Assembly: GCA_029432815.1 (NCBI GenBank)
Contig: JAROBA010000011.1
Span: 62,001 to 126,000, forward strand
From: Pontiellaceae bacterium B1224
GTDB lineage: Bacteria; Verrucomicrobiota; Kiritimatiellia; Kiritimatiellales; Pontiellaceae
Direction: 5' to 3'
DNA: 64,000 nt
The notes under the pieces: generated by a model
Database searches by the model: none
What the model was told of the DNA's origin: nothing
Seen by the model: only the letters and a program-made list of their open reading frames with translations
Shown: piece after piece, positions 9,684 through 54,663 of the stretch
Layout: the number at the start of each line of letters is the position of its first letter
How positions within the stretch are numbered: position 1 is the first letter of the stretch
Made by a program: the position numbers and the translations under genes

Positions 9684-10541
9684 CTACTTGGCCGGCAGGT
9701 AACCGTGCTGCGAGAGGAACTCAATACTGTGCTTCATGGTTTCGTTAAAAGCTTCATCGCCATTGCGCTCACGGAAGAACGAACCGTTGAAAAAGCCGTG
9801 GCCTTTGCCTTTGAAGGGGACGAGAATACATTCGTTCCCTGCCTCAGTCATCAGCTGGTCAAACCGTTCTGCGTTTTCGTAGGGCACCGTGGTGTCGGCG
9901 GTTCCGTGAAAAAGCAGGGTGGGGACAATGCCGGGATGGACCTGATGACAGAGCGAAATGTCCTGCTGTTTTTCAAGCGGAATACGGTCAGCGCCAAATC
10001 CTTTGTCTGTGGTATCGAGAACCGGGTTGTAGAGGATCATCAGGTTCGGCACCGAGCTGACGCCCAGGTCATCCGTTTCATCTTCCAAACCTTCAATCAC
10101 GCCCGTTGCTCCGGCAATATGACCGCCCGCCGAACCGCCCGCCGCGATGATTCGGTCTGGATCCACGCCCAGCTCGTCTGCATGTTCGCGGATCCAGCGC
10201 ACGGCGGATTTTGCATCTTTCACACATTCGAACGGAGTGGCACCGTTACGACTCTTAATACGGTAGTCGGCAGAAAACGCGACGATTCCAAGTTCAGCAA
10301 AAGCACGTGCCTGTTGATAGAATTGTTTCGGAGTTCCGGTTTCCCAGCCTCCGCCGAAAAAGAAGACAATCGCCGGGCGTTTGTCCGATGCCTGGAAACC
10401 TTCCGGCTCGAAGACCTGCATCTTCAGTTTAATGCCGTCGATCTCTTTATAGACGACCTCACGATCCGGCTTCATTCCGGAACCGAATGCCAATACTGGG
10501 CACATCACCGCCAGCCATACATACTTCATAAACGTATTCAT
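9684..10541 (-). CDS. Secreted alpha/beta-hydrolase, esterase/lipase type
   Basis: The 285-aa protein has an N-terminal signal sequence. Its oxyanion region is FFFGGGWETG, where most relatives have HGGG. The nucleophile elbow is GGSAGG (Ser about 137), the Asp is in FHGTADTTVPYENAERF and the His in FKGKGHGFF. This matches the BD-FAE / CE10-like family that removes acyl groups from small esters and acetylated sugars. It lies 53 bp upstream of the giant beta-helix gene and downstream of the sulfatase, which fits deacylation of the same polymer. A second ATG four codons in is an alternative start. Confidence 0.83.
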   Translation of the reverse strand: MNTFMKYVWLAVMCPVLAFGSGMKPDREVVYKEIDGIKLKMQVFEPEGFQASDKRPAIVFFFGGGWETGTPKQFYQQARAFAELGIVAFSADYRIKSRNGATPFECVKDAKSAVRWIREHADELGVDPDRIIAAGGSAGGHIAGATGVIEGLEDETDDLGVSSVPNLMILYNPVLDTTDKGFGADRIPLEKQQDISLCHQVHPGIVPTLLFHGTADTTVPYENAERFDQLMTEAGNECILVPFKGKGHGFFNGSFFRERNGDEAFNETMKHSIEFLSQHGYLPAK

Positions 10542-10565
10542 CTCTATTAAACCCAGTTTTTCCGG

Positions 10566-10751
10566 TCAGCCCCACATGGTTGGCATATCAGCCAAATCAT
10601 AGTATGCGATCATATAGGGATGATCATTATCGTATTCTGTCAGCGGCCGGGGATTACTGCATAAGCCCACCTCGCGCACCTCGTCACCAACACGGCCCTA
10701 CCGGCCGTCACCCAACGACCAGCGTAACTCTTCTACCACTTTTTCAATCAA
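10566..10751 (-). pseudogene. Possible decayed coding sequence in frame behind the sulfatase
   Basis: Directly after the TAA of the sulfatase the same frame continues for about 60 codons with a single TAG. It reads LIEKVVEELRWSLGDGR, stop, GRVGDEVREVGLCSNP, then RPLTEYDNDHPYMIAYYDLA and DMPTMWG before a TGA (10568-10566). The ending has protein-like composition. I see no relative of it in the window. It may be a lost C-terminal extension of the sulfatase or the tail of a deleted gene. It could also be chance open frame. Confidence 0.3.
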
Positions 10752-12167
10752 TTACCGATGCTTAATGTTACCCGTTCGGATCTGTTCCAAATCGTTGACC
10801 ATGCCCTGCTGAACATCTTCCCACCATTGGTCAAATTCGCGTGCAAGATGCTGCACAACTTCCGGGTGTTCTGCAGACACATCGTTCGACTCATCGCGGT
10901 CGTTTGCATAGTCATACAGCGCACGCTGTCCCTCCATATCCCAAACCAGTCGGTAGCGCTGATTAAATACCGAGGCGTAGACGAACTTACTGCTCTCCAA
11001 CTCATCGCTGCGCTTCCAGCGACCCACATGAGTAAACAGCAAACGACTTTCAGGAATTCTGGACGGTTTGCCTTGGATGTCCGGCAACAGGCTCATGCCC
11101 TGCACGTTGAGATCCTGAATATTCACACCGCTCAGCTCTGCAAAGGTCGGCAGGATATCCATGGCACTGGCCAGCGTATTATTTTCCGTGTTCGGCTGAG
11201 TGATCCCGGGCCATTGAATCAAAAACGGCACACAGGTTGAACCGCGCCAGGACTGCGTTTTTCCGCCGCGGAACCCGGCATTGTATAAGGCGCTTTCCTT
11301 CAACGTTCCATCGAGATTGATCCCTGCACCTTTTGGGCCGGAAATAGCGTGGCCATTATCGGTCATAAAAATCAGGATGGTTTCGCGGGAGTCGGTTCGG
11401 TTCTCCATCCACTCCATGAGCCGGCCCATGTTTTCGTCCACGGCTGAAATCATGGCATAGTAGGTTTTTTCTTTTTCACTCAAGGGCGCATCGGCATAGA
11501 GATCGATCAGGCGCTGAGGAGCGGCCAAGGGAACGTGCGGAATACTGGTCGCCAGATACGCAAAAAACGGCTGATCGTCCGAACAGGAGTCCATCCATTC
11601 CATGCCTACGTCAAACACCACATCCCCGCAGTAGCCGGCATACTGCTGTTCGTCTCCGTTATGAGACAGCTTGGGATCGAACCGGGGGGATAACTGATTA
11701 TAGGTATAGATCGCCGTATCAAATCCCCGCTCATAGGGTGCCAACGGCTTTCCCGTTAAACCGGTTTTATGCTTCGGTGAAGAGAGATGCCACTTGCCAA
11801 ACATTCCGGTTTGATAACCACCTCGCTTGAGGATTTCCGGCAACAGCGTGATGTCATCGCGCAAATTTTCGCGGTCCAAAATCGTATGGGTCACTCCAAC
11901 CGAAAACTCATGCTTTCCGCTCATGAGTTGCGCTCGTGTGGGCGCACAGGTGGGCGCGGCATTAAAATTGGTGAACCGAAGGCTCTGACTTGCCAGCTTA
12001 TCCAGATGCGGCGTCTTAATGATTTCATTGCCGCTCATTCCCAGCTCGCCCCAGGACATATCATCGGTCAGCACAAAAATAATATTCGGCTTTTCCGATT
12101 TTGCCCAAGCCATTCCGGCGGCACTCATCAAACAGGCTAACAGGGTGGTTGTTACTTTATTCATCAT
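10752..12167 (-). CDS. Secreted sulfatase, formylglycine-dependent (S1 family)
   Basis: The 471-aa protein starts with a signal peptide (MMNKVTTTLLACLMSAAGMA). NIIFVLTDDMSWGELGMSG supplies the metal-binding Asp pair. The TCAPTRAQLMSG motif (C-x-P-x-R, Cys about 74) is the site of conversion to formylglycine by a maturase that is not in this window. GKWHLSS and MTDNGH supply further conserved blocks. The product ends with FDQWWEDV and a short tail. It would hydrolyse sulfate esters of a polysaccharide outside the cytoplasm. The ATG overlaps (ATGA) the stop of an upstream gene remnant, suggesting it once sat behind a relative of the 777-aa gene. Subfamily cannot be assigned by eye. Confidence 0.93.
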   Translation of the reverse strand: MMNKVTTTLLACLMSAAGMAWAKSEKPNIIFVLTDDMSWGELGMSGNEIIKTPHLDKLASQSLRFTNFNAAPTCAPTRAQLMSGKHEFSVGVTHTILDRENLRDDITLLPEILKRGGYQTGMFGKWHLSSPKHKTGLTGKPLAPYERGFDTAIYTYNQLSPRFDPKLSHNGDEQQYAGYCGDVVFDVGMEWMDSCSDDQPFFAYLATSIPHVPLAAPQRLIDLYADAPLSEKEKTYYAMISAVDENMGRLMEWMENRTDSRETILIFMTDNGHAISGPKGAGINLDGTLKESALYNAGFRGGKTQSWRGSTCVPFLIQWPGITQPNTENNTLASAMDILPTFAELSGVNIQDLNVQGMSLLPDIQGKPSRIPESRLLFTHVGRWKRSDELESSKFVYASVFNQRYRLVWDMEGQRALYDYANDRDESNDVSAEHPEVVQHLAREFDQWWEDVQQGMVNDLEQIRTGNIKHR

Positions 12168-12337
12168 CCTTCTCTTTCTACCTTATCTCTATAAAACACA
12201 AACGTCCGTTTCGGTCCGATACGGATATCGACATTATCGCATGTCTGACCCGAAACAAGCTCCTTGGCGCCTATAAAACCTGGAGGAAAACTCAATGGAA
12301 AGCCTTTGTAATCACTCAAAAAAATAGCCTTAATGAC
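12164..12337 (-). pseudogene. C-terminal remnant of a relative of the 777-aa secreted protein
   Basis: The minus strand reads KAIFLSDYKGFPLSFPPG, FIGAKELVSGQTCDNVDI, then RIGPKRTFVFYRDKVEREG and a TGA that overlaps the sulfatase start. The intact gene at 472-2805 ends with FVGAKDLVSGQTC, three spaced residues, and TIVFFREQKL. The match is clear over about 40 residues. A TGA just upstream and the lack of any further homologous frame show that only the 3-prime end is left. The rest of the gene seems to have been deleted before the esterase at 12458. Confidence 0.75.
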
Positions 12338-12457
12338 TCATAAGAAAACACCACACACGAGGTTACTTTGTCAACTCCGCCGAGCGTTTTCCGAATACAA
12401 AAAGACGGTAAATCAACCAGCAACAGCCCCTGCTAAATCATACAATTACATACTGTT

Positions 12458-14842
12458 CTACTGCAGGTTGACTCGATAAAACCCCGCAGCGGGCTCTTCT
12501 TCCGGTTCAATCACCGCATCGGATTTTCCATACAGCGTAATATCGTCAAACCGGATGCCATGCCGGTAATCGGGTGTACCGTAGAGATAGAAGGTCCAGG
12601 TCACGATGTTGGAACTGGAGAAATCGTCAAAATCCACGTCTATCAACTCGACCGAAGCATTATCCTCAGCCATGGAATAGCTTTGCAGAATAAATGTTTC
12701 AGTAGTTCCGGTCGTATAGCTGACGTCGACTTTTCCGCCCGATGAAGCCTGGTCGGTATAAAACGAGAGCGAACTATAATCTACTGAGCTTCCTTCCGGA
12801 TCGATCGTAAAGGCGAACCAGTCTCCGGCTGTGGCGGCCGCGCTCTGGCTGGCCACATTGACATCCGCAAGGTTGAAGCCGGGGGAGCCGGAGGCACTCG
12901 CATCAAAAAGACCGTTCCCCAAAACATATGACGAAGAGCCGCCGCCGCTCAACGATCCGCCCTGGAACATCCGGGACGCCGTGGTGCCCGCCTCGGTATC
13001 GACTGAATCAAAGGCTTCCGTATTAAAGTCGCCGTTCCCCCCGGTTTCGGCATCGTATAGCGCCAATACAACCGGAGCAGATGTCGTCGCCGTACCATGC
13101 AGCGTGATGTCATCGAAACGGGTTCCATGCGAGCTGGCCGGCGCACCGTAAATATAGAAGGTCCATACCACATCCTCACTACTGGAAAAGTCGGAAAAAT
13201 CAACCGACATCAACTCGACATCAACATTATTAGTCGGCGGCTCATAGTTTTGGATAATGAACGTTTCTGTGCCCCCCAGGGTGTAGCTGATATCCACGTT
13301 CGCGCCGCTTGATGTCTGATCCGTATAGAACGAGAGTGATTCATAGTTAGCGGTATATCCGTTCGACTGAAGGGTGAATGAAAACCAGTCGCCCGCAGCG
13401 GCCGCCGCGCTCTGGCTGGTCAGGTTGACATTCGCCAGGTTAAAACCCGGAGCCCCGGAGTCGCTGGTGTCGAAAAGATCCCGGTTAAGGATCATATCAC
13501 CGGCGCCGCCGCCATCCAGAGATCCTCCCTGAGACAATCGGGTCGCTGTGGTTTGGGGCTCCGTATCAACCGAGTCGAAAGCCTCATTGTCAAAATTGCC
13601 ATCGGTACCGACTTCGGCATCGTATAACGCCAACACATTGGAAATAACAACTCCTGGATTTTCAACCGAACTGAGCTCATATGACCATACCGTATTCGTC
13701 CCGGTTGCCGCTGCCGGATATGCATCTTCGAGTTTGGTCCATTCCGACAAATCGACACTGTGATCCACTCTATAGCTGTTTTCGGCCTTGCTAGGCCAGT
13801 TCAGTGTCACTTCATTGCTGGCAACCACAATACTGTTCACTTTGAACACGGAGTTTGAATTGAGCGGATCGGTTCCTGCACGATATTCAAAACCATCTTT
13901 CTGGCCGTCTCCATCCGAATCGGGATTGCCGGGGTCGGTACCCAGTGTGGTTTCCTGATCAGCCGAAAGCCCGTCATAATCGGTATCCAGCGCTTCCAGC
14001 TGAATCATGACCGCCGCATGCTCTGCCCCCAGCTTTGCCTGCCCCAGGCCGTCAAAATGAATCGTTGCTTCGGCAAAAACCTGACAGCCGTCCGAATTGG
14101 CAAAGCCGGCTCCGTCGACATTTGCGGCCACGGTTTCCTGTGCGAGACGCACCTTTCCTGAACCGGTGGAAACATCATAAACATCCATAGTCTGGTTCGA
14201 AGAAAGTCCTCCTATCACGAATGGCAGGCTGCAGCCGTCAAACAGGTCGCGTCGAACGCGGGAGATCAGCAACGTCAGGTTTTCTTCATAGGCGGCAGCC
14301 GGTCCGGTCCCGCGGTCATGTTCCCCCTGTTGCCAGAGCATGCCGATCATTTCATAGGTATGCCCCTCTGCATCCAGGTCGGCCAACGCCGCATCGATGG
14401 TTTCTAAAAAGGTTGGATACCGTGTGCCGGTAGGCGACCACTCTTCATAGAGCGTGCTCCCGCCGTGCGTATATTTAATGATGGCAATATGATCGTCAGG
14501 GAACGCCTGAGCCATGTCATAGCCAAAGGCCAGCTCAGGACCGAACTCCGGCGAATTAACCGGACTGGTTCTTCCATGACCGGAGCCCGGAGCGAGACTT
14601 ACCCAGGTATCCTCCGGAAGTGTATTATTCGAGGCATCCAGCGTTTTATGATAATAGAACAGAATATTGGTGTGCGTCTGATTCAGATGGGCCAGCTCGC
14701 CCGTCAGTTGCGCGGCATCGCCCCGCCCCGTTCCATTCGACTGTCCGCCGATCAAATAAACCTTGTAGTGTTCCGCTGTACAAACTCCAAGCAATGAGGC
14801 CCACACAATCATGGCCCATATTCTAGTCATCTGACATTTCAT
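12458..14842 (-). CDS. Secreted SGNH-type carbohydrate esterase with duplicated C-terminal beta-domain
   Basis: I chose the start MKCQMTRIWAMIVWASLLGV (794 aa) because it begins a signal peptide; the longer frame does not. The esterase domain follows at once (HYKVYLIGGQSNGTGRG, Ser about 35; MLWQQGEHDRGTG; TIHFDGLGQAKLG with the probable His). A calcium-type thrombospondin-3-like segment follows (DTDYDGLSADQETTLGTDP). Then comes a small beta-module (VTLNWPSKAENSYRVDHSVD) and two tandem copies of a domain of about 165 aa that starts VLALYDAE and ends RFDDITLxG. The C-terminus is AGFYRVNLQ. The 24107-25939 product has the same architecture with a single copy. It probably removes acetyl groups from a polymer while tethered or bound through the repeated domain. 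Confidence 0.82.
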   Translation of the reverse strand: MKCQMTRIWAMIVWASLLGVCTAEHYKVYLIGGQSNGTGRGDAAQLTGELAHLNQTHTNILFYYHKTLDASNNTLPEDTWVSLAPGSGHGRTSPVNSPEFGPELAFGYDMAQAFPDDHIAIIKYTHGGSTLYEEWSPTGTRYPTFLETIDAALADLDAEGHTYEMIGMLWQQGEHDRGTGPAAAYEENLTLLISRVRRDLFDGCSLPFVIGGLSSNQTMDVYDVSTGSGKVRLAQETVAANVDGAGFANSDGCQVFAEATIHFDGLGQAKLGAEHAAVMIQLEALDTDYDGLSADQETTLGTDPGNPDSDGDGQKDGFEYRAGTDPLNSNSVFKVNSIVVASNEVTLNWPSKAENSYRVDHSVDLSEWTKLEDAYPAAATGTNTVWSYELSSVENPGVVISNVLALYDAEVGTDGNFDNEAFDSVDTEPQTTATRLSQGGSLDGGGAGDMILNRDLFDTSDSGAPGFNLANVNLTSQSAAAAAGDWFSFTLQSNGYTANYESLSFYTDQTSSGANVDISYTLGGTETFIIQNYEPPTNNVDVELMSVDFSDFSSSEDVVWTFYIYGAPASSHGTRFDDITLHGTATTSAPVVLALYDAETGGNGDFNTEAFDSVDTEAGTTASRMFQGGSLSGGGSSSYVLGNGLFDASASGSPGFNLADVNVASQSAAATAGDWFAFTIDPEGSSVDYSSLSFYTDQASSGGKVDVSYTTGTTETFILQSYSMAEDNASVELIDVDFDDFSSSNIVTWTFYLYGTPDYRHGIRFDDITLYGKSDAVIEPEEEPAAGFYRVNLQ

Positions 14843-14923
14843 GATTCTTATCCCAGCCTTCACACCTTGTCCTGAACCCGACTTTTCCCAACTCATATTC
14901 CGCAACCTCAATAAACTAAAACA

Positions 14924-14952
14924 GCGGGCTCTGCCGAACTGACAGAGCCCGC
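14924..14952 (-). terminator. Intrinsic terminator behind the 14981-15658 gene
   Basis: A perfect 10-bp stem (GCGGGCTCTG / CAGAGCCCGC) with a 9-nt loop is followed, on the minus strand, by TGTTTTAGTTTATT. Confidence 0.75.
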
Positions 14953-14980
14953 CACACACATCACAGGAGCATGCGATGAG

Positions 14981-15658
14981 TTAAATCATGAAACGCCGGC
15001 GGATAAAGAGAATAGCTCCACCGAAAGCGCCAAGCAGCCCCAGCGTAGCCGGCTCCGGGATCGCCGTCAGCGTACTGGCCCCATTCGTAGCGCCTGTGAA
15101 GTCGAAATTCTGTTCGAAGGTTCCGACCTGGACCCCGTCCTTGGTGAGCGCTCCTTCATTCCACAGCATCTCGTACAATGTGAGAGAGTTAGCTGCACCA
15201 GCAGTTCTGCTAGTTACACCATCTCTAGTCCAATTTGTACCATTCGCCCGAATTCCCCACGATCCGCCACTAATGATCATCTGCGCACCTTCAGACATAT
15301 CGATCGCAACAAGACCCGTATTGGTATCAGCAAGCCATACACCACCGACCCACATTTTGCCAAAGGTCAAAGATCCGTCCGAACCGATATTCAACTGGAC
15401 ATCCTGTAACGTATTATTGTTTCCACTGACTCCACCTAACTGAACTTCGTTGTCGTCACCGGCAATCCAGGCTCCATTAATATTAAGCGTTGCCACGGCA
15501 TTATCAGCAATTGACACTGCGGCACCGTTGGTGGTGTATGTTACGTCACCGGCATCCAGTGTGAACGTTCCACCACTGGACAGATCCGGAAACGGGATTA
15601 CTGCAGCTTGAGTTGCTCCGACGGCAAGTAATGCCGCCCCTAGTAGTATCTTTTTCAT
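14981..15658 (-). CDS. PEP-CTERM secreted protein
   Basis: The 225-aa product has a signal peptide (MKKILLGAALLAVGATQAA) with AAGGAG about 6 nt upstream of the ATG. A Gly/Asn-rich beta-domain follows (FTLDAGDVTYTTNG; GGSWGIRANGTNWTRDG). The C-terminus is a textbook PEP-CTERM signal: IPEPATLGLLGAFGG, a hydrophobic stretch, then FIRRRFMI. Such proteins are sorted to the cell exterior and processed by an exosortase, which is not in this window. The N-terminal ~195 residues are about three-quarters identical to the next gene upstream (15763-17835), where the PEP-CTERM tail is replaced by other domains. The role is unknown; an extracellular matrix or surface function is typical. Confidence 0.85.
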   Translation of the reverse strand: MKKILLGAALLAVGATQAAVIPFPDLSSGGTFTLDAGDVTYTTNGAAVSIADNAVATLNINGAWIAGDDNEVQLGGVSGNNNTLQDVQLNIGSDGSLTFGKMWVGGVWLADTNTGLVAIDMSEGAQMIISGGSWGIRANGTNWTRDGVTSRTAGAANSLTLYEMLWNEGALTKDGVQVGTFEQNFDFTGATNGASTLTAIPEPATLGLLGAFGGAILFIRRRFMI

Positions 15659-18225: not shown

Positions 18226-20256
18226 TTACTCAGCAGGACGCTCAATAATTTCAACAGGCTCGTTTGACTTGATTTTACTCTTTATATCGTTCAGATCAAA
18301 CTGCCCCTTACGCACATAAAGGCGCTGAAGATGAGGAAGGGAAACCGGTTTTTTGAGCGTCAGCATCTGACATAGGCTTAAATCAACTGACTCAACCGGT
18401 AAACCGTTTAGATCAAACAGCTCAAAACTTCCGTTAATCTCAAGCCGTAACATACGGAAGGTGAGAAAGCGCAAAAGGCATTTATTAAAACCAGGCTGTC
18501 CCGCTAAATTCACATCACCTTCCGCCCGAACCGTGAGCCTTCCTTCCTCCATGTTATGGGAAAGACTGATATATTCGGGGTCATCATGCGCATACTGCAA
18601 ATAAGCCTCTATTACGCGTACGTAACCCGTTTTATCGGAACGGGCCGCAAGATCATACGCCAGAACCCTTTCCAGGTGATGGGCCCTTCCCTTATCAATA
18701 AAACGCGCCTTTTGAAAAAAACCGACCAACTGCGGCACGGACGGACGCTTTGTGTCTGAAAAATCAAAATCAGGAAATCCCTCCGCCAAACGAATGCTCT
18801 GCATATAATTCGGTAACTGGCGAATGGACTGGGGACACGCCAGTGCAGATCGATAATCCAACATCAGGCATCGTAGCCCGAATAGATTGTCATGTGCTTC
18901 CCGGCAGTCTGCGTCCTGCTGTAAAGCGGCCTGAATCAGCCTGTCACATTGATGTATCGTCCGTATGGGGTGCTCATAAATCGCCAAACTCCTCAAATTC
19001 ATGGCAGCCATCACCAGTTGTCTGGCCAGGACTTTCTTCCCGATCTTTGTCTCTTCCACAAAAGAGGAATATTCTGTATCGAGAGTCTCCATCTCCTCGG
19101 ATAACCGCTCCGTCTGCTTTCTTTGCTGCTGAATTGACTGAACGGAAAGTACTGCCACCACACCCAGGATCAATAACGCAACCACCGTAATGGAAGTCTC
19201 CACACGGTTACGGACAAAAAACAGCCGAGCCTCCCTGAAAAAACCCGATTCTTCGGCTCGCGTCGAGAAGCCGGCCAGGTAGCTCTCAATTTCCAGCAGC
19301 AATTGCGGAACCGAATTATATCGTTCTTCGGGCTCCAGCGCCGTTGCTTTCATCACCACCGCATCCAGCCCTTCAGGCACATAGCAGGCCGGGTAGTTCA
19401 GCCGCGGGGAAATCACTTTGGATTGCGATGTTTTCTCCAGCACTTCCTCAGGAGTTCCGGTGAAAGGGGGGGTGCCCGTCAGAATAAAATGCAGGATGCA
19501 GCCGAGCGCATAAATATCTGTCCGTTGATCCTTGGTCTCGCCAGGAACCACCTGTTCGGGAGCCATATACCCTAGACTTCCCTTGATCTGCCCAACCAAC
19601 GTCATGTTGCCCCAGATATGGGGCGAGCGTTCAGATCCACTTTGTTCGAACTCCGCCTCTTCAATGAGTTTACCCAAACCCCAGTCACAGACCAAAACCT
19701 CACCGAAATCATCCACTTGAATATTGTCCGGTTTAAGATCCAGGTGAACAACTCCCTGCGAATGAGCATAGGCCATGGCATCGCACACGCGGCAGAAAAT
19801 CTGAAGCTGCTGATGCAACTCGCCGCGCGCTGCCCGGCCGACCACATCCACCAGCGTGGTATTGCTTTTCAAGTCCATGGTAAAGAAGGGGCGCCCATCT
19901 TTACCTATCCCGATATTATAGACCTTGATTATATTCGGATGACTCAACGAGGCCACCAGCCTGGCCTCCCGAATAAACAGATCATAGAATTCCGGTCCGC
20001 GACCGGCGCGCAGGCGTGCCATGGCAATCCAGCGCTGGAACTGCAGGTCGTACGTCCGGAAAACCTCCTTCAGCGCACCTTCGCCAATTAACGATTCATC
20101 CTGATAGCGACTTTTTGTCGCCGCCAGCTCCGAATAAGCAGGACAGAGTTCCTCCAGACCATGCGTATCCAGGTCATTGGCCTCACTGTATAATTGGCTC
20201 AAACGTTTATCCGGAACATAGTCCCCCGTAGCCTGGGATTCATTTCGATCACTCAC
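18226..20256 (-). CDS. Membrane Ser/Thr protein kinase, atypical (no beta-3 lysine)
   Basis: The 676-aa protein has a kinase domain at about residues 55-330. Visible motifs are the Gly loop IGEGALKEVF (58-66), the alpha-C Glu in FIREARLVASLSHPNI, HLDLKPDN (171-178; the R of HRD is L, catalytic Asp 173 kept), VCDWGLGK (Asp 191; DWG instead of DFG) and GSLGYMAPEQ. The ATP-anchoring VAxK lysine is missing: the strand reads WIAMARLR. A transmembrane helix follows at about 353-373, then a coiled coil and a C-terminal outer domain of about 270 aa with no known motif. Its start overlaps the stop of the ECF sigma gene by 4 bp, so the pair is co-expressed and probably forms one signalling unit. Whether it is catalytically active is open. 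Confidence 0.85.
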   Translation of the reverse strand: MSDRNESQATGDYVPDKRLSQLYSEANDLDTHGLEELCPAYSELAATKSRYQDESLIGEGALKEVFRTYDLQFQRWIAMARLRAGRGPEFYDLFIREARLVASLSHPNIIKVYNIGIGKDGRPFFTMDLKSNTTLVDVVGRAARGELHQQLQIFCRVCDAMAYAHSQGVVHLDLKPDNIQVDDFGEVLVCDWGLGKLIEEAEFEQSGSERSPHIWGNMTLVGQIKGSLGYMAPEQVVPGETKDQRTDIYALGCILHFILTGTPPFTGTPEEVLEKTSQSKVISPRLNYPACYVPEGLDAVVMKATALEPEERYNSVPQLLLEIESYLAGFSTRAEESGFFREARLFFVRNRVETSITVVALLILGVVAVLSVQSIQQQRKQTERLSEEMETLDTEYSSFVEETKIGKKVLARQLVMAAMNLRSLAIYEHPIRTIHQCDRLIQAALQQDADCREAHDNLFGLRCLMLDYRSALACPQSIRQLPNYMQSIRLAEGFPDFDFSDTKRPSVPQLVGFFQKARFIDKGRAHHLERVLAYDLAARSDKTGYVRVIEAYLQYAHDDPEYISLSHNMEEGRLTVRAEGDVNLAGQPGFNKCLLRFLTFRMLRLEINGSFELFDLNGLPVESVDLSLCQMLTLKKPVSLPHLQRLYVRKGQFDLNDIKSKIKSNEPVEIIERPAE

Positions 20257-20846
20257 AGCTCCAACTCCTCTGTAAGCGAACGCACCTCCAGAAGCAACCG
20301 CTGTTTCACCCGTTTCCGAAGCGTGTAAACTGATGAAACCGTCAGACCGGTTTCCTCCGCAATTTCGGCGGCTGTTTTTCCATCCAGACCCAGTTCAAAA
20401 GCCTCGATCGCCTGCCCTTTGAAAACCTGTTGCACGCGTTCCATTGCCAGGTTTCCGATATAGGTGGCCCACTCACTTTCAATCCACAGGTGGATATCCG
20501 AAGGAACCTTTAATTCATCCGCAGCGCTCTCACTCTCGAATTCACAAAAGTTGGATGGACGGCTTTGCCGCTTACGAAAATAGTTAACCGCTGTATTGCG
20601 GATAACCGTTCCCAGCCAGTTCCGGAAGGTCGATCGGCTTCGGTCATAGTTCTTAAGGGTGCGAGTCAGACCAACCAGAACATTCTGCATTACATCGTGC
20701 CGTTCGCCTTCAGGAACCCCAAGTTCCCCAAGAATATAGAGAATAAACCGTCCGTAATGACCCACCAACTCATTCCAAGCTTCTTCATCATCCGTGTCAC
20801 ATGCACGACTCAAAAGCGTATAGCTTGTTTTATTATAGTAGGACAT
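20253..20846 (-). CDS. ECF-type RNA polymerase sigma factor
   Basis: The 197-aa protein has sigma region 2 at about residues 20-95 (AWNELVGHYGRFILYI; RHDVMQNVLVGLTRTL; STFRNWLGTVIRNTAVNYFR) and region 4 near the C-terminus (LDGKTAAEIAEETGLTVSSV, YTLRKRVKQRL), the latter a helix-turn-helix that reads the -35 element. It has no extra domains. The kinase gene overlaps its 3-prime end, an arrangement common in Planctomycetes and Verrucomicrobia, where such sigma factors are thought to be controlled by partner kinases rather than by classical anti-sigma factors. No strong ribosome site precedes the ATG. The upstream 164 bp should carry the promoter. Confidence 0.88.
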   Translation of the reverse strand: MSYYNKTSYTLLSRACDTDDEEAWNELVGHYGRFILYILGELGVPEGERHDVMQNVLVGLTRTLKNYDRSRSTFRNWLGTVIRNTAVNYFRKRQSRPSNFCEFESESAADELKVPSDIHLWIESEWATYIGNLAMERVQQVFKGQAIEAFELGLDGKTAAEIAEETGLTVSSVYTLRKRVKQRLLLEVRSLTEELEL

Positions 20847-42725: not shown

Positions 42726-45700
42726 TTATTCAACGAGTTCAGCCGTAATCCGATAGTAGCAGCTGGACTGTGCCGGATTGACAGACGAGTCGAAGAATGG
42801 ACTGTTCGTGACGGTGGCAATTTCCACGAACGGTTCATTCAGATTTTCGGCTCTGAAAATGGTGTACGTTCGGCCCTCCACCGCATTCCAGGATAGGGCC
42901 GGTGGGGCGAGCGCCTGAACTGCAAAGTAGGAACTGTTGTCGGTGGGGATGGTACCGGCGATATATTCCTGCAGGTTATTCTGACCGTCCAGATCCGGGT
43001 CGGCATCCGGTTCTACGAGATTCTTGAAATACAATGTTTCCCATTGGTCCGACATTAGGTCGCTATCGATATCTGCCGAGTCCGGCACGTTCCATGATGA
43101 AAGTCCGGTGCGCATAAGCGGATAGCCCGTTCCGTCCGCACTGACTGGCCACGGGGATTGATCAAAATAGAACAGCTCATCGACAACAACCCAGGATATG
43201 TCGAGCGGTTTGAGCGGGTCGTCCGAATCCTGAGGGCGTTCGATGGCAACGCGTTCCCCGCGGTCGGAGAGCGATCCGCTGTAGCCGCCAATGAAAGTTT
43301 CGCTGGCGGCGTCTAATCCATAGGCTGAACAGAACAGGTCCAGTTTGACGGAATTGGTTGGGTTGAACGAAAGAATCCAAAGGATTTCGCCGGCGGGCAG
43401 GGTGGTGCCGGCGGGGAAGTCGAATTCAACTCCGCCATCAATACGGTAGGCACCGGTTGCATTTTCAAACGTATGCGAGGTCGATCCGAGATTTTGAATC
43501 TGTATATATTCAAAATCGTTGCCGGGCTGTATTGGATTATACATCAGTTCGCTGATTTGAATCGTGGCCGCAACCGGCACGTTCGCACTTCCAAGGGTTG
43601 GAAGGGTGGTGATCCAGCTTGCCGAACCATCGGGATAGCGACCCCAGGAAACATGTTCGGTATCCGTATTTTCCTGTCCTTTGAAACGGACCACATCCAC
43701 CACGCGTCCGGGTGCGGTGAGCACCACCAGTTCTCCGGCCTTATCGAGGCCGAAACCGCTGATGCGGTCGGGGTGAAAATTGTTTTCATCAAAAACGATG
43801 TAACCATCGGCTGGAATCACGGTTCCAGATGGAATTTCCCATTGGTATAACTCGTCGAGATCATCGCTCAAATACCACCCATTCAGTGTGATGTCCGATC
43901 CGGTTGGATTATAGAGTTCGATTTTATCGTTCGAATCGTAGGGTTCAGCAAGGCCGGTATCGGTATGCGCTGTAATTTCATTCAGCAGAACCGTTTCTCC
44001 TTCTTCAGGGTCCGGGTAGCCGGGCGAGCCTTTGAGGTAGGTGCTCGCGCGCCAGTTACCCCCATAATCGAGCGAGCCGGTTTCCTGACGGTCGATCGCT
44101 GAGTCGAGCGGAACCAGCGAGTGCCCCGCGCCGTCAGCAGCCTGCGGCCAGTTGCGCGCATCATCATACGTGAAGGAAATCAGATCCTCATTGCGGAATT
44201 CGAGATCCACCTTCTCGCCGCTATTGCTGAAGTCACCGCTAAACTCCCCGGCAATCGAAATGCCGCCGCCGGGATATGCGGCATTAAAGCTGTCGATATC
44301 ATCGACCGCGACCAGAAACTCACCCGGGGCAAGACTGGTTTGTGCGGCATTTTTAAATTTAAAGCTGATCGCATTGTCGAACTTGTAACCTTGAAGTGAA
44401 ATGGTTTCGTCTGAAATATTTTTCACCTCAATAAAGTCGTATGGATTTCCGTCGGGGGCGTGATACATCAGCTCGGTCACAGCCAAAGGAATTTCGGGCG
44501 TCCAATACGTCTCTTCAGCCAAGGCGCTCCACTCGCCATTGGTTGCGCGGCAGCGGGCCATGAGATGCGTGGGGCGGGTAATGGAAATAGATCCGGTATA
44601 CGTTGAACCGGCAATGCCACCGCCAATCGCACGCGGGTCGGTACCGTCGGTGGTGTAATAAATGGTTCCCGAACCTGCGCTCAAAAATACGGTGGCTCCT
44701 GAATCAACCCGTCCTCCGGCACGACTCATCAGCGGAGGATCAATGGATGGTATTAATCCATCGGCATCCAGATAACCAATCACTTCATTGCACCGATCGC
44801 CAGAGCGGGAGAACCAGGCCCGGGTGGTTGCGACTGCATCAACCCATGTGTCGCGGTCCAGTTCCGTACTGCCCCAGCGCGCTGCGTTGGCGACGATGGC
44901 GCGGTCGATCTGAGCCGCACGGAAATCCAAACGCGCTTCGCAATTGGTTCGAACCAACACGCCGTCATTATACATGCTTTCATACACCCGATCCGCGTAT
45001 TTGATGCGGTATTCCGCATTCTCGATGAGTTTGTCATGAAGGGTCATTGCGTTGAAATATTCGGGCAACGTGAAATTGCTATTCGTGAACGGGCCCGTGA
45101 AATCCAGCGCTTTGTAGGTATCCAGACTATGTTCACTGTCGTGCTGGATCCACTTGAATCCATCGGGATTGACGCGGTTGTACACGGCATACATGTTGTT
45201 TAATTTCGCGTAACGGCCCACGAACCACGTGATGCAGTTGTCGGATGCAGCCATGTGTTGCAGTACCAACAGGTAATCAATCAGGTTATCGACATCGAGC
45301 AGCTTTTCTTTGGTTGCATCAGGTTCTCCGTTGGCGTCGAGTCCTTGAATGGCAAAATAGTCCGCATCGTCGGTAAAGCCTGCCATCGCCGCAGCGTACA
45401 ACCGGTTGTATGCATCCAGTGTTCCGTCCGTGACTTCGATGGAATACTGGTCCGGCAACCCTCTGCCAATTACCTTGACCGCATCGTAGTCATCTTTGTC
45501 GCCCCCGAAATAGGATGCGGCAAAGGAGGCGACCGGTCGCTCTTCGGTCATGAACAGCCCCCAGTATTCACCATTTAAATAGAGGTGGTAATAGCGGCTT
45601 CGGGTGTAGGTCTGGCCCATTGCGCCCGCGGTGTCGCGCGCGAATACATCGCGCAGAAACGTATTCTTTGAATTGTTCTCTTTCGACCAGCTATAGTTCT

Positions 45701-47465
45701 GCGCCGACCGCAGGTCCACTTTGTCGAACTCATCGACACCCTCTTCTTCGAACAGCGGGAACTTGAGCTTGCCCGCACCGTAGTCTTTTCGGAAAAAGAG
45801 ACGAAAGGAATGTTTGGGATTTGAGCTCGTACGGCTGGCCCCACCTCGGATGCGTAATCCGGCATTGATGTGAAACCCTTCGCTCCCATCGGGATTGATC
45901 AGTTCCGCGGAAGCCGGGACCTCCCAACCGTGCTGGGAAGCATTGACATAAATCCCAATGGCCGGGTCGTACAGGTTTTCATCATCCGTTGTAAGGGATA
46001 TTGTCGGAATGGCTTTCAGTGCATCTTGGACCGAGACCACCTGATTCGATGCGTCAAAGTAGGTCGCGTTTACGACAGCGGAGTCCATGCCGTATTCCAA
46101 TGATTGGCCGTTGATCGATGCTTCTGCTTGGGAGCGGTTCGCGACATCGTCGACGAAAATATAGGTGTCGGTACGTGGGAACGATGGCTTCCAACCCTCT
46201 GCGAAGGAGCGGACGCGGAAACACGTTGTGGCGGAGATGGTGATCGGCCCTGTATATTCGGGGCTGCTCTCGGTGGGTTCAGATCCGTCGGTTGTGTATC
46301 GGATTGTGGCGCCGGGCGTTACGTTCGACACGGACACCTGAAACGGGCTGTCGTGAAAACCGCGTGCCGGCGTTGTAACCGGGGTTTCTACATCGCCCAG
46401 ATAGGTAACGTTTGCATTCGCTGTTCCGGGCGTGCTGTAACCAAGCATTCCAATTGCAGATGCATCGATATCTCCATCGGCAAAGGTTGCTTCTATCTTC
46501 GGCATAAAAATGAGATCCGAAGAAGTGAGTCCTTTATTCAGGCCATGAATCGCCAATATATTTGCCCCAGAGTTCAATGAAGAGATATGGGACGTCAGAT
46601 CAAAATCTACAAAACTTACAGCTGAATCATCGCTATGCAGTGTTCCTCCGCTATCCCACGCCAATGTGCCCGAGACATTCGCCGATGCGACAAGATCTCC
46701 GTTGATATAGGCCGCGAATCCGTCATCGTATTTCATCTTTAAATTCAGACTGGTGGCCGCTTCGGCGCTTTCAACTGAAAAGGGAACGCGGATGTAGACG
46801 GATTGGTTAACGCCTTGCATCGCCATAACATTCAGACCGATGAGACCTGTATAGTCAGTATCCTCGTCATAACCCACGCCCGTCGTTCCACTCAACCATT
46901 CCGAATCGTCAAAGGCTTTTTCCTGCCAACCTGCAGCATCCGATGCGCTGGTGGGAATATGCGCGGTGCAGGGAGCTCCTGTTTCCAATAAGACGATCGG
47001 TTCGAGACCGCTGCTTTCAAAGCGATAGCCATAGGAGACGTCCTCATCCAACGACGGAAACGTTAGGGAGTGCTCAACCGTACTACCATCCGCTTGAACT
47101 AATAGCACAGATTCGCCGGAAGCGCTCAGCTTGAAATTGGAATGCAGTTCAGCGCCTGCGACAGCTCGGTTTTTATCGGATGCAAAGACGATTAGGAAAC
47201 CCTCGGGAGCGATACTGGTTGCGGGGAACTGCCATTTAACGAGGTTCGTAGCAGTATCGGTTAAATACCAGCCGGTTAAATCGACTGGGCTATCGCTTGT
47301 ATTGTGCAGCTCAATCCAGTCTGGTGAATCTCCGTCTTCATCCTCGAGTGAGCCGCCGTTGTCTGCCACGATTTCACTAATCCATACGTTCTGAGAAAAA
47401 CTGGTTGAAACCGCCATAAATCCGATAAAAAACAGATGCGCAAGGTGTAGTTTATAATGTTTCAT
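42726..47465 (-). CDS. Very large secreted CotH-kinase / lamin-tail-domain protein
   Basis: I use the ATG at 47465 (1579 aa); the longer frame starts with TTG. After a signal peptide comes a lamin-tail domain (VWISEIVADNGGSLEDEDGD; DWIELHNTSDSPVDLTGWYL). Then a beta-domain and a chitobiase-C-terminal-like repeat (ATIRYTTDGSEPTESSP) precede a CotH kinase-like domain at about 540-880 (FRLFFRKDYGAGKLKFPLFE; DLRSAQNYSW; RDVFARDTAGAMGQTYTRSR; GLFMTEERP; WIQHDSEHSLD). A second chitobiase-type repeat and three more lamin-tail domains follow. The C-terminus has an Asp-rich calcium segment (DPDLDGQNNLQEYIAGTIP) and a beta-module ending CYYRITAELVE. CotH proteins phosphorylate secreted proteins in spore-formers; here the target is unknown. 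Confidence 0.85.
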   Translation of the reverse strand: MKHYKLHLAHLFFIGFMAVSTSFSQNVWISEIVADNGGSLEDEDGDSPDWIELHNTSDSPVDLTGWYLTDTATNLVKWQFPATSIAPEGFLIVFASDKNRAVAGAELHSNFKLSASGESVLLVQADGSTVEHSLTFPSLDEDVSYGYRFESSGLEPIVLLETGAPCTAHIPTSASDAAGWQEKAFDDSEWLSGTTGVGYDEDTDYTGLIGLNVMAMQGVNQSVYIRVPFSVESAEAATSLNLKMKYDDGFAAYINGDLVASANVSGTLAWDSGGTLHSDDSAVSFVDFDLTSHISSLNSGANILAIHGLNKGLTSSDLIFMPKIEATFADGDIDASAIGMLGYSTPGTANANVTYLGDVETPVTTPARGFHDSPFQVSVSNVTPGATIRYTTDGSEPTESSPEYTGPITISATTCFRVRSFAEGWKPSFPRTDTYIFVDDVANRSQAEASINGQSLEYGMDSAVVNATYFDASNQVVSVQDALKAIPTISLTTDDENLYDPAIGIYVNASQHGWEVPASAELINPDGSEGFHINAGLRIRGGASRTSSNPKHSFRLFFRKDYGAGKLKFPLFEEEGVDEFDKVDLRSAQNYSWSKENNSKNTFLRDVFARDTAGAMGQTYTRSRYYHLYLNGEYWGLFMTEERPVASFAASYFGGDKDDYDAVKVIGRGLPDQYSIEVTDGTLDAYNRLYAAAMAGFTDDADYFAIQGLDANGEPDATKEKLLDVDNLIDYLLVLQHMAASDNCITWFVGRYAKLNNMYAVYNRVNPDGFKWIQHDSEHSLDTYKALDFTGPFTNSNFTLPEYFNAMTLHDKLIENAEYRIKYADRVYESMYNDGVLVRTNCEARLDFRAAQIDRAIVANAARWGSTELDRDTWVDAVATTRAWFSRSGDRCNEVIGYLDADGLIPSIDPPLMSRAGGRVDSGATVFLSAGSGTIYYTTDGTDPRAIGGGIAGSTYTGSISITRPTHLMARCRATNGEWSALAEETYWTPEIPLAVTELMYHAPDGNPYDFIEVKNISDETISLQGYKFDNAISFKFKNAAQTSLAPGEFLVAVDDIDSFNAAYPGGGISIAGEFSGDFSNSGEKVDLEFRNEDLISFTYDDARNWPQAADGAGHSLVPLDSAIDRQETGSLDYGGNWRASTYLKGSPGYPDPEEGETVLLNEITAHTDTGLAEPYDSNDKIELYNPTGSDITLNGWYLSDDLDELYQWEIPSGTVIPADGYIVFDENNFHPDRISGFGLDKAGELVVLTAPGRVVDVVRFKGQENTDTEHVSWGRYPDGSASWITTLPTLGSANVPVAATIQISELMYNPIQPGNDFEYIQIQNLGSTSHTFENATGAYRIDGGVEFDFPAGTTLPAGEILWILSFNPTNSVKLDLFCSAYGLDAASETFIGGYSGSLSDRGERVAIERPQDSDDPLKPLDISWVVVDELFYFDQSPWPVSADGTGYPLMRTGLSSWNVPDSADIDSDLMSDQWETLYFKNLVEPDADPDLDGQNNLQEYIAGTIPTDNSSYFAVQALAPPALSWNAVEGRTYTIFRAENLNEPFVEIATVTNSPFFDSSVNPAQSSCYYRITAELVE
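43589..43603 (+). repeat. Iterated palindrome TTCCAA-GGG-TTGGAA, perfect
   Basis: In the CotH-type gene; encodes L-P-T-L-G-S. A two-mismatch copy lies at 46095-46109 in the same gene. Confidence 0.85.
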
Positions 47466-47685
47466 ATAGATCAAATCCGTTTACTCAGCTTTTGGCGGCT
47501 ACCTTATGAGTCGTTTAATGGCAGACAACCAATATACCAAAGTGTTCACTAAACCATGTATAAGAAAGGCTATAGACCCTTCTGTACAAAACGGATATGT
47601 CAGCAGATTATATACCGTGTTTCGATGTTTGTTTTTTGAGTTACCAAGGTAATCTTTTTGGCCGGTTAAACTCTGACAGGAAACG

Positions 47686-50319: not shown

Positions 50320-51179
50320 TTTGGATCCAGCTGATAGACCTTCAGGTCTTTATACTGATGGTGCGTACGGACCAACCGGAAGCCGAAATAGCCTTCGTCA
50401 TACGAAGGGAAGGTCTCTTCGTTATATTCTTCCTCGATGACAGCACGTTCCCCATCCACTACCGTTTCGACCGTTACGGTGTCGCCCGCCTTGATTTCAT
50501 AAAACACTTTCCCATCCATGCTGTATTGCGCCATCCCGTTGAAGATGACGAGCTGGACGGTGTGCCACTTTCCGGGGGTGATCAGATAGTCTTCATTACC
50601 ATCCCGATCGTTAAGCGCAATATGTGGAAACGGTTTTTCATTCACCACGCGCGGGTACCGACGGAAGCGGGTGGTCTGGTTGCCAACAGCTCCGCCGCCA
50701 CCGGTGCTGGCATAGTACCCCTGCATTTTTCCGTAGCTGCTGAAGCCGCCGTTAAACAGCTCATAGTTGAAAATATCGGTTTCATTATCGACGCCGGAGC
50801 AGTGCCAGAAGTTATTGATGTCGCGTGCCTGAATGCTTCCGCCATTGACGGTTTCCAACGGGCACAGCACCTTGTATTCAATCAGGATCGGTCCTTTAAA
50901 CTTATGATTGAGCCAGGCCGTACAGCCGCGAGCCGGCATATAGAGGTCCAGCATGCCGTCGTGGAATTCAATCACCTCTTTTTCAGGACCTTCCTTCGCC
51001 TCAACCTGAATCACCCACTCATTCGTATTGGAGAAATCGGTTGAATAGAGTTCTTCACCAACGGAGAACATGGATTGGCCGTAGCCTAGCTCTTCCGGTT
51101 TATCGGCAGTCGCACAGCTGCTGAGCAGGGCAACGCTGAAGAGTAGGGGAATAGAAGTGAAGATGTTGAGTTTAGTCAT
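50316..51179 (-). CDS. Small lipoprotein, paralogue of the 49459 product (DUF1961/DUF6250-like)
   Basis: The 287-aa protein carries a lipoprotein signal (MTKLNIFTSIPLLFSVALLS, then SC; LSSC lipobox with Cys about 22), so unlike its twin it should be membrane-anchored. The mature part mirrors the twin: GEELYSTDFSNTNEWVIQVE, DGMLDLYMPARGCTAWLNHK, ARDINNFWHCSG, TRFRRYPRVVNEKPFPHI. It overlaps the stop of the lyase gene upstream by 8 bp and the start of its twin downstream by 4 bp, an operon with coupled translation. A role in binding or cutting the lyase products at the cell surface is inferred. Confidence 0.68.
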   Translation of the reverse strand: MTKLNIFTSIPLLFSVALLSSCATADKPEELGYGQSMFSVGEELYSTDFSNTNEWVIQVEAKEGPEKEVIEFHDGMLDLYMPARGCTAWLNHKFKGPILIEYKVLCPLETVNGGSIQARDINNFWHCSGVDNETDIFNYELFNGGFSSYGKMQGYYASTGGGGAVGNQTTRFRRYPRVVNEKPFPHIALNDRDGNEDYLITPGKWHTVQLVIFNGMAQYSMDGKVFYEIKAGDTVTVETVVDGERAVIEEEYNEETFPSYDEGYFGFRLVRTHHQYKDLKVYQLDPK

Positions 51180-54100
51180 TTTGAGTTTCCTCCGTACGAA
51201 TTACGTTTCCATTTAATAGTTCTGTCACCGAAATACGAATGTTTTCCGGATCGCTGTCCAAACCGGAAATGTTAATTTTCTGCGTTCTGCCGTCGGTCAG
51301 TTCGACCACCAACTCGTTTGCACTATTTGCCTGAACCGATTTCACAACGGACTCCGTTTCATAGGGTTCTATGACGGAAAGATATCGCGCGTCGGTGCCG
51401 GTGCTGCGAACGGCCATTGTTTTGCGGCGTTGTGTTTCATCGCCCATCGGGAAGTCGCCGCCGATCGTTGTCTTGAATGCAACCGCGTCCATGCCCGAAA
51501 GGTCAATGGTAATGCTGCCGCTGGACTTGGAATCCTGCGGCATACCCGGCGTGGAATTTTCCATGAGCATGCCTTCAATTTTCACCGGGCCGCCGTAATA
51601 ATCTTCGCCAGCGACTGCCGGTTGTAGGATATTGTCATATTTGACGGGAAGAGATGAAATGAATACTTCCGAACCGTCGTCGAGAATCAATTTCGCATCG
51701 CCCCAGAAGATCGTATTGTTCTGCGGTTTTTCAGTTCTCGTAGTCAGCACCAGTTCTTTTTTGCCCGAAATATTCACTTCAATATCCTGTGCACCGAGTA
51801 TCCACGCACCCGTGCTGTCTTTCTCCAATGTTTCGCCATCGGCCGTCACACTGTACCAGATGCGTTTATTCACATTAAAGGTTTCCGGGGCGGTGGCGAT
51901 CATGATCTCATTCTGCCGCGGCCAGGCATTAAATATATCGATCTTCAACGGACCGTCTTCGCTCGCCTTCATCCGGCCGATCTCATTTTCGCATCCTTTG
52001 CCGAAGCACATTTCAAAACGGGCCCGGGCAGTGCCTTCGGTCTCGTACCAGTCGCAATCTGTAATGAACTGCGCCGCACCCAGTGGATCTTTATTCATCT
52101 GACCGTCATGGCGAACCAATTCCACCTTCTCGGCTTCCAATCCCTGGAAGCCTTTCACATGAAACAACCAGTCAAACGTATGTTCCTGTTCTGCCTTCAG
52201 ATAATCAGCCAATACAATGTAGTCATCCATCATAACCATTAAGCGGCGTTGCAGTACCGGTTCGGTATAGCCGGTCACTTCCGCATACGCCGGCGCATTT
52301 TCCGGGATATAGATCGAACGATTGTCTGCTTCGACTTTTTTTGCAAAGTCGGTTTCCAGCCCGTCATAGAGCATCCCGCCGTAAGGAGGATGACTCCATC
52401 GCGCTTCCGACTCAACCGCCACGGCCTGCAGCATATCGCCGGTATAATAGAAGGTGCGGAAACTTTCCTTCGGCTCCTGCATCTTTTGATCTACCACTAC
52501 CATATTCTTGGTCATCGAGGTTTGAACTAAAAATTTGTAGAGATAGGAGGCATAGCCATACCAGATCATTTCCGGATTATAGAAACTGCGTCCATAACGC
52601 ATCATATTTAGGAACCCGGTTCTGTCGAAGTGACCGTGATGTCCACCATGTGAGCCGTAGTGCAGGGTGGCCTGAATCTGCTCGCGCTGTTCCCTGTCTT
52701 CCGCCTGAGAGCGCAACTGGACGATGCCGATGTTATCCGCATAGGCTGATTCTTTCATTTTTTCTGAAGTCACGTTCGGCAGATCCGGCACGCCATAGAG
52801 CAGGCTTCTCTCCGTGCCGCGGTTAATCACGGCAGCATATTCCGGATCGCGATAGAGGTAGTAGGCCAGCTCATAGCGATCTCCGGTCACTTTCATTTCC
52901 GTGGCATCGTTCACGGCAAACATGACTCCGCGATAATCCAGGAAAGGAATCATCGCATCCCACATGTCTTTGATGTTTACGCTATTTTTAGCAAGGGGAC
53001 CCCATTTCATGAAATCCATTCCGAACAGGCCGGGCACTCTACGTTCCGGTAGCAGGGCAAAATATTGAGTGGGTCCAATCGGCATCTCTTCATCGATGAA
53101 ATTGATTCCCCAGGGCAGCAACGCAATTCCAATCTCTGAAAACTCGCTGGCCACCCACAGGTTATATCCCACAGCACATTCATACCACCAACCGTCGCTC
53201 ATGACCCCATGAATGAACTGCTGGTAAATGCCGGTTGGTGCATAGAGCAGTTCCTCAACAAGGTGCCAGTCCTGAATGGCCAGAGCGCAATATAGGGCAC
53301 TAGTCACTTCGGCGACATCCCAGTTACTGATGGCACCGAAATCAGTGCCCAGCTGGATGGTTTCGATGTGCAGGCGGAAGGTGTTTTCGACGAGTTCTTT
53401 ATCTTCATCCGTCAAAATGCCGGAATCCAGAATCATATCGTAGGCGCGGGCCACGTGCTGGAAGAACACGCCTTCTTTCACAAAGTTCTGCGCGTTCCCG
53501 CGGAAGGTGGTGGGATAGCCGTTATCCAGATTGACCACGCGACGAATAAACAACGCACACTTTTCTGCATATTCTTTTTTTCTGGTGACCTGATAAGCAA
53601 TGGCGCAGTCAAACAGATCATCCGCATTGTCAAGATGATATAGATTTCTGCCTAAATGAGGATTCACAGAGGAGGGGCCCGTCGCAAGTTCCGGAACCTT
53701 CCAATTAGAGGCAGTTTTTTCATATTTAGCCAGCGCCTCTTTTGCCCAGTCGTAGGTTTGAGCGTTTTCCCGAACCACATCCCACCGATCCTCGGTAAAT
53801 ACAATGTTTGGAAAAGGAACCGCGACGGCCGTGGTAAATTCCAGGGATTGTGCTGCAGAACCCTGACCATTCGGGATCACTGTAATCACCTGCTTTTCCC
53901 GGATGCCCTGAGGCAGTCGTGCAGGGATAGATACTTCAATTCGACAGGTCTTTACCTCTCCCGGAGCCAATTGCAGCAGGGCCGGTTCAATGGTCACGGG
54001 CATGGCTTCCCAACCCAACGTGGAAACCATAAGCTGGACGCTTTGCTTCTCGGCGGTCGTATTGCCAATGCTCATCTCATACTGTACCGTGCCGCCGGCT

Positions 54101-54663
54101 TCAGCAGATTTTCCCTGAGCCGGTGAGTCCAGCGCAATGCGCTCGCCCTTGGTCAGATGTAGATTCCGAATTTTCAATACCGGATTTTTCGGAGAGGTTG
54201 CCGTGATCTCAACCTCTTTAACAGCCTGTAGCGATCCCCAGCGCTGGCCTTCGGAAACATCAAACAGTTCCCATGGAACATAAACGGTTTTCCAGCCCTT
54301 TCCAGTGATTGGAATTCGGGCCGTGTTGATGCCGCTCAAACGATTTGCATCGCTCTCCGTTAATGTGGCGGACACAATCAGGTCAACGGTAGATTCCTTT
54401 TCCAGAAAAACCTCAAAACTCAGCCCCGCATAGATACTCCAGTCCGATGCATATTCATAATATTCACGGAACCCGATATATTTAAACTCGCCGTCGGGAT
54501 AGCGGTATGAAATGGGCTCGCCGCTTTTGAGCGAGATCTCATCGTCATTAACTTCAGCAATTCCGGACCAATCCGAAAAATCAGGACTTCCGATATCGGC
54601 ACGCAACTGTGCGTGGGTGATTAAGGGAAGCAGAGCCGCTATCAGCATGAGTACTTTTTTCAT
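51172..54663 (-). CDS. Secreted heparinase-II/III-type polysaccharide lyase, copy 2
   Basis: I chose MKKVLMLIAALLPLITHAQ as the start (1163 aa), with AGGAA about 9 nt upstream. After the signal peptide come a carbohydrate-binding-like beta-domain (DWSIYAGLSFEVFLEKES; GKGWKTVYVPWELFDV), an Ig-like domain (GGTVQYEMSIGNTTAEKQ), an alpha/alpha-toroid (KEYAEKCALFIRRVVNLDNG; AISNWDVAEVTSALYCALAI; DGWWYECAVGYNLWVASEF) and the heparinase-II/III beta-sandwich (HYGSHGGHHGHFDRTGFLNM; GRSFYNPEMIWYGYASYLYK). The SHGGHHGHFD motif fits the metal or catalytic His region of these lyases. They cleave uronic-acid-containing polymers such as alginate or heparin-like glycans. It is highly similar in length and sequence to the gene 38 bp upstream. 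Confidence 0.85.
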   Translation of the reverse strand: MKKVLMLIAALLPLITHAQLRADIGSPDFSDWSGIAEVNDDEISLKSGEPISYRYPDGEFKYIGFREYYEYASDWSIYAGLSFEVFLEKESTVDLIVSATLTESDANRLSGINTARIPITGKGWKTVYVPWELFDVSEGQRWGSLQAVKEVEITATSPKNPVLKIRNLHLTKGERIALDSPAQGKSAEAGGTVQYEMSIGNTTAEKQSVQLMVSTLGWEAMPVTIEPALLQLAPGEVKTCRIEVSIPARLPQGIREKQVITVIPNGQGSAAQSLEFTTAVAVPFPNIVFTEDRWDVVRENAQTYDWAKEALAKYEKTASNWKVPELATGPSSVNPHLGRNLYHLDNADDLFDCAIAYQVTRKKEYAEKCALFIRRVVNLDNGYPTTFRGNAQNFVKEGVFFQHVARAYDMILDSGILTDEDKELVENTFRLHIETIQLGTDFGAISNWDVAEVTSALYCALAIQDWHLVEELLYAPTGIYQQFIHGVMSDGWWYECAVGYNLWVASEFSEIGIALLPWGINFIDEEMPIGPTQYFALLPERRVPGLFGMDFMKWGPLAKNSVNIKDMWDAMIPFLDYRGVMFAVNDATEMKVTGDRYELAYYLYRDPEYAAVINRGTERSLLYGVPDLPNVTSEKMKESAYADNIGIVQLRSQAEDREQREQIQATLHYGSHGGHHGHFDRTGFLNMMRYGRSFYNPEMIWYGYASYLYKFLVQTSMTKNMVVVDQKMQEPKESFRTFYYTGDMLQAVAVESEARWSHPPYGGMLYDGLETDFAKKVEADNRSIYIPENAPAYAEVTGYTEPVLQRRLMVMMDDYIVLADYLKAEQEHTFDWLFHVKGFQGLEAEKVELVRHDGQMNKDPLGAAQFITDCDWYETEGTARARFEMCFGKGCENEIGRMKASEDGPLKIDIFNAWPRQNEIMIATAPETFNVNKRIWYSVTADGETLEKDSTGAWILGAQDIEVNISGKKELVLTTRTEKPQNNTIFWGDAKLILDDGSEVFISSLPVKYDNILQPAVAGEDYYGGPVKIEGMLMENSTPGMPQDSKSSGSITIDLSGMDAVAFKTTIGGDFPMGDETQRRKTMAVRSTGTDARYLSVIEPYETESVVKSVQANSANELVVELTDGRTQKINISGLDSDPENIRISVTELLNGNVIRTEETQND
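52135..52149 (-). repeat. Iterated palindrome, one mismatch (spacer GGA on minus strand)
   Basis: Encodes F-Q-G-L-E at the codons homologous to those of the perfect copy at 55659-55673 in the twin lyase. Confidence 0.7.
54300..54314 (+). repeat. Iterated palindrome, one mismatch (spacer TGA)
   Basis: TTCCAG-TGA-TTGGAA; encodes I-P-I-T-G-K. The homologous codons of the twin lyase carry no copy. A two-mismatch copy lies at 53799-53813 in the same gene, also without a counterpart in the twin. Confidence 0.7.

Follow-up and report, generated by a model that had tools for sequence, protein, structure and literature searches.

A gene remnant of an uncurated protein family at a probable recombination junction in a polysaccharide-degradation locus of Pontiellaceae bacterium B1224

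Genes of the locus and the remnant between them

The stretch of DNA analysed here (the window) comprises 64,000 nucleotides of the marine Pontiellaceae bacterium B1224 and lies at C22:62001-126000 of a 5.38 Mb genome in 204 contigs, all of which was covered by the whole-genome search. On the minus strand, the gene of a SASA-domain carbohydrate esterase (acetylesterase) of 833 aa (12458-14959) and its 3' flank (12300-12457) are followed by the remnant (12164-12299), by a type I (formylglycine) sulfatase gene of 471 aa (10752-12167), and by the gene of a BD-FAE-like alpha/beta hydrolase (esterase; 9684-10541). The sulfatase is an intact-looking member of Pfam PF00884 (Sulfatase, E 1.6e-54) with the formylglycine motif CAPTR at residue 74. 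At 472-2805, also on the minus strand, lies an intact gene encoding a 777-aa protein, whose product is the nearest relative found for the remnant (score 105, the next best being 69).

The remnant is contained in an open frame of 57 codons at 12164-12337 of the minus strand, which is translated as VIKAIFLSDYKGFPLSFPPGFIGAKELVSGQTCDNVDIRIGPKRTFVFYRDKVEREG and ends with a TGA. In local alignment, 49 of its residues match residues 727-775 of the 777-aa protein without a gap and with 20 identities, giving a BLOSUM62 score of 105; 2000 shuffles averaged 29 and never exceeded 51, and the other five frames of the region scored 29-33. When the 777-aa protein was searched against the whole genome, the remnant was match no. 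5 (E 5.8e-6), covering query residues 731-775, which is the exact C-terminus. The similarity and register proposed in the earlier note are thus real, and so is the overlap that it described between the TGA of the remnant (12166-12164) and the first ATG of the sulfatase (12167-12165), which share four bases as ATGA at 12167-12164. The span that it gave, 12164-12337, has to be shortened: 12164-12299 is derived from the family and contains the last ~45 codons and the stop, while the first 13 residues of the open frame, VIKAIFLSDYKGF (12300-12337), come from the 3' flank of the SASA gene and are kept in the relative described below. Homology to the family starts immediately past this flank, at 12300, and the upstream limit of the remnant was set by comparison with that relative.

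Four intact, full-length copies of the family are present in the same genome, at C22:62475, C22:16961, C22:26804 and C166:998, and the remnant is a truncated fifth copy. Of the three domains predicted for the intact protein, it keeps the equivalent of residues 731-775 alone; in the structural model these residues would supply the closing strands of the beta-sandwich at the C-terminus, and such a piece cannot be an enzyme or act alone. The remnant, with its frame of 45 codons, probably has no function. It is a real gene fossil, albeit of an ordinary kind. Weak matches elsewhere (L178-L189), considered as further relatives of the remnant, turned out to be antisense or unrelated.

Several other features of the window deserve mention. 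Two adjacent genes of 1177 aa each (51172-54705 and 54702-58235), with 64% mutual identity and a 4 bp overlap, represent a tandem duplication with essentially no Pfam match, and their C-terminal parts are visibly closer to each other than their N-terminal parts, which may reflect gene conversion. At 18226-20846, the gene of a Ser/Thr protein kinase and that of a small sigma-70-like factor overlap by 4 bp (20253-20256) and form a possible regulatory pair. A protein of 1582 aa encoded at 42726-47474 combines lamin-tail domains, a CotH kinase domain and chitobiase C-terminal repeats.

An exchanged tract with sharp edges

The relative used for comparison, G016, was matched to Pontiellaceae bacterium B12227. 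A tract of the window, 10378-15004, is ~95% identical to G016 and is interrupted at 12090-12300 only. The corresponding pieces of G016 lie at 22.5-25.3 kb (the SASA gene with its flank, 93% over the block) and at 30.1-32.5 kb (the mature sulfatase and the esterase, 89%). Sliding identity mostly ranges from 85 to 100% over 15027-10409, with lower values in the interruption, in the SASA 3' flank (79% identical) and around 14000; beyond the tract it falls to ~70-79% or homology ceases. Within the tract, amino acid identity to G016 is 96% for the SASA esterase and 95% for the mature sulfatase. The esterase gene at 9684-10541 is a mosaic, in which the 5' fifth, as far as ~10378, hardly differs from G016; identity drops to ~72% below that point, the remainder lying at about 70-79%.

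Silent sites give the same picture. Identity at four-fold sites is 0.85 for the SASA gene and 0.86 for the sulfatase gene, well above the genome and locus background: it is 0.60 for rpoB, 0.49 for the esterase gene overall, and 0.41-0.52 in most of the remaining locus genes, a single one reaching 0.74. The tract has edges at ~15004 (in the tail of a PEP-CTERM gene), 12300, 12090 and ~10378 (inside the esterase gene), those at 12300 and 12090 being sharp. These features are the hallmark of DNA that two lineages have recently exchanged. The recent rearrangement suspected in the earlier note is therefore well supported, and its breakpoints could be placed by the comparison with G016.

The ~210-bp island at 12090-12300 contains the remnant and the start and signal peptide of the sulfatase gene (12091-12167), and nothing else. 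On its upstream side, the SASA flank is shared with G016 up to ...ACAAAGGCTT and ends abruptly there, the two sequences parting at window position 12300 after ...TGATTACAAAGGCTT. Its downstream edge, at ~12090, is located just past the signal peptide, where the sulfatase gene encodes a conserved N-terminal region. At the position of the island, G016 has 4.8 kb with the tail of another gene, a gene of 1459 aa that is alginate-lyase-like, and a sulfatase signal peptide unrelated to that in the window. The stray tail in G016, MFFEVELNAQ followed by a stop (L129 7290-7388), lies directly past the SASA 3' flank and shares its junction point with the remnant. Since the block shared with G016 is broken only at ~12090-12300, the remnant marks a recombination breakpoint.

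A repeated or mobile element was considered for the 12300 junction and was ruled out, as the SASA 3' flank of 168 bp is limited to G000 and G016, the remaining matches being short and non-significant. Neither the island nor a donor for it was found in the 58 related genomes searched. Among the searched genomes, none besides G016 holds the locus and no third allele was seen; an intact 777-like gene at the locus was likewise not found in relatives, G016 carrying a different gene there.

Like other gene remnants at the edges of horizontally exchanged tracts, that of the window is an in-frame truncated tail with intact paralogues elsewhere and a sharp change of identity beside it. Unlike them, it sits within the exchanged tract, in an island that is not shared with G016 and that also holds the next gene's signal peptide.

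Origin of the fragment

In our view, the remnant is very probably the truncated 3' end of a 777-aa-family gene, non-functional and left at the recombination junction within a locus for polysaccharide degradation. The starting arrangement would have been a 777-aa-family gene followed by a sulfatase gene, with the 4-base overlap of stop and start. Exchange with a G016-like lineage would then have introduced both neighbouring parts, or substituted for earlier versions of them, namely the SASA gene upstream and, downstream, the mature sulfatase together with the first part of the esterase gene. The junction at 12300 would have cut the 777-like gene so that its last ~45 codons were left, and the second junction, at ~12090, would have fallen just past the sulfatase signal peptide. 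The ~210-bp island would thus be the residue of the old arrangement, in which the lost gene is represented by its tail and the sulfatase gene by its start. Because the stretch at 12090-12300 that is not shared with G016 holds just those two, the source allele presumably had the fragment right next to the sulfatase start. Consequently, the ancestral order assumed in the earlier note, a 777-like gene and then a sulfatase gene, is a fair deduction for that allele, although the partner was not necessarily the present sulfatase: as the exchanged tract includes the mature sulfatase, a different sulfatase may originally have stood there, with its signal peptide as the sole trace. The order of events and the direction of transfer in this account are inferred from two alleles.

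The alternative that survives best is that the fragment arrived already truncated. Here the donor allele would already have had the order SASA gene, remnant, sulfatase gene, G016 would later have swapped the island for the lyase gene, and no whole gene would have been lost at this locus. The SASA and sulfatase genes are equally diverged from G016 at four-fold sites, as if a single event had carried them with the island between them, and G016, too, has a gene-tail scar at the junction; on the other hand, none of the searched genomes has a third allele displaying the older state. We regard this course of events as quite possible, albeit somewhat unlikely. It is a sub-variant of the explanation given above, from which it differs in the place of truncation and not in the identity of the fragment. 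The fragment, then, comes from a paralogue, as the earlier note held, but its wording of a loss being proven was too strong.

Relocation, in which the intact gene now at 472-2805 would have occupied this place before shifting elsewhere in the cluster, with its tail staying behind, would agree with the finding that the best match of the remnant is the product of this gene, 10 kb away on the same strand. The two are, however, only about 41% identical over their common C-terminus, with DNA similarity confined to one 33-bp stretch, and this is too diverged for a recent move, whereas the surrounding tract is recent; we therefore consider relocation very improbable. Hardly more likely is the idea that the open frame of 57 codons, which ends in the ATGA overlap, encodes a functional small protein or a leader peptide for translational coupling to the sulfatase: the flank that supplies its initial residues is unrelated, its upstream in-frame starts are TTGs only, and it has no counterpart in G016 or in the 58 related genomes. 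An assembly chimera is conceivable in a draft genome of 204 contigs with such abrupt junctions, but the tract is about 95% rather than 100% identical to G016, and separate errors would be needed at three independent edges, which leaves it a similarly slight probability. Short as the similarity is, chance resemblance is ruled out by the shuffles, the other frames, the exact C-terminal register and the E-value of the genome search.

The parent family, its neighbours and its predicted fold

The family is widely spread. Together with the 472-2805 gene, the loci collected (L050-L128) represent Verrucomicrobiota, Planctomycetota, Bacteroidota, Caulobacter, Pectobacterium, Streptomyces, Nonomuraea and Paenibacillus. 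The link to sulfatases that the earlier note had read from the remnant, and for which it suggested checking how commonly the family is followed by this sulfatase in related genomes, was not borne out as a general one. Outside Pontiellaceae, a sulfatase gene lies immediately downstream in 0 of 75 cases and within three genes in 1 of 75; among the intact Pontiellaceae copies, two of seven have one immediately downstream. These two are the copy at C22:16961-19243, with a sulfatase gene 30 bp downstream whose product is 30% identical to that of 10752-12167, and the G016 orthologue, with a sulfatase gene 223 bp downstream. The copies of G008 and G004, those at C22:26804 and on C166, and the window copy (472-2805) have none immediately downstream. 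Even the two positive cases are weak evidence, because Pontiella genomes are packed with sulfatases, 165 having been reported in P. agarivorans (PMC10880615). Looked at from the sulfatase side, the closest sulfatases in sequence, in G004 (58-59%), are preceded by genes recognised by eye as GH95-like and GH2-like, and not by a 777-aa-family gene. Association with sulfatases as a rule of the family is rejected on these counts, and type I sulfatases are not its defining partner. Neighbours of the family elsewhere include GH95, GH43, GH88, GH39, GH97, GH106, GH127 and heparinase II/III-like genes.

No Pfam or NCBIfam model matched the family, and no related sequence was found in the PDB, where a 51-member profile gave two unrelated weak chains (best E 0.13); similarity in sequence to any lyase of solved structure is thus lacking. 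The AlphaFold model of the 777-aa protein, built with 51 sequences, has a pLDDT of 92.5 and predicts a beta-sandwich (22-200), a helical toroid (220-577) and a second beta-sandwich (594-775). The top Foldseek matches are PL8 chondroitin/hyaluronate lyases (best 2q1f, E 1.1e-9), with low TM-scores. In VIA-align, PL17 and GAG lyases lead with Z of 15-16 over ~370 residues at 8-11% identity, 7bjt reaching Z 15.9 over 367 residues. Helical toroids generally score high in this comparison, and sugar epimerases reach Z 14.6, so the lyase reading rests on the toroid together with the sandwich that follows it and not on Z alone.

The predicted order of a toroid and then an antiparallel beta-sandwich is that of PL8, PL17 and PL33 lyases. 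In this respect the family resembles the PL8 enzymes chondroitin ABC lyase (2q1f) and hyaluronate lyase (1f1s), as well as PL17 (Alg17c, 7bjt), PL33 (BT4410), the GAGases (8khv, 8khw) and PL40 (9vtk), albeit with 6-13% identity and an rmsd of about 4-6 Å over the VIA-align lyase matches. N359, Q360, Y438, R476, R501 and Y511 are invariant in the family and H632 is frequent; as sequence positions, they would suit the Asn/His-Tyr-Arg site of such lyases. Based on the predicted fold and the gene neighbours, the parent family is probably one of polysaccharide lyases. In the literature on newly described toroid lyase families, we found PL40 and other known families, none of which could be tied to the 777-aa family.

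With slightly less than even confidence, we propose a broader picture, in which the 777-aa family would comprise undescribed toroid-type polysaccharide lyases across Verrucomicrobiota, Kiritimatiellota, Planctomycetota, Bacteroidota, Proteobacteria and Actinobacteria, and in which its genes would be swapped among Pontiellaceae as single-gene modules of sulfated-polysaccharide clusters, via crossovers where sulfatase and esterase genes are conserved.

The main interest of the locus lies in the mosaic tract and the uncurated parent family rather than in the fragment itself. The remnant is a scar which tells that genes for the digestion of algal sugars in Pontiellaceae are exchanged piecewise between species, with breakpoints inside sulfatase and esterase genes that give rise to mosaic enzymes, and it points to a large uncurated family that resembles polysaccharide lyases.
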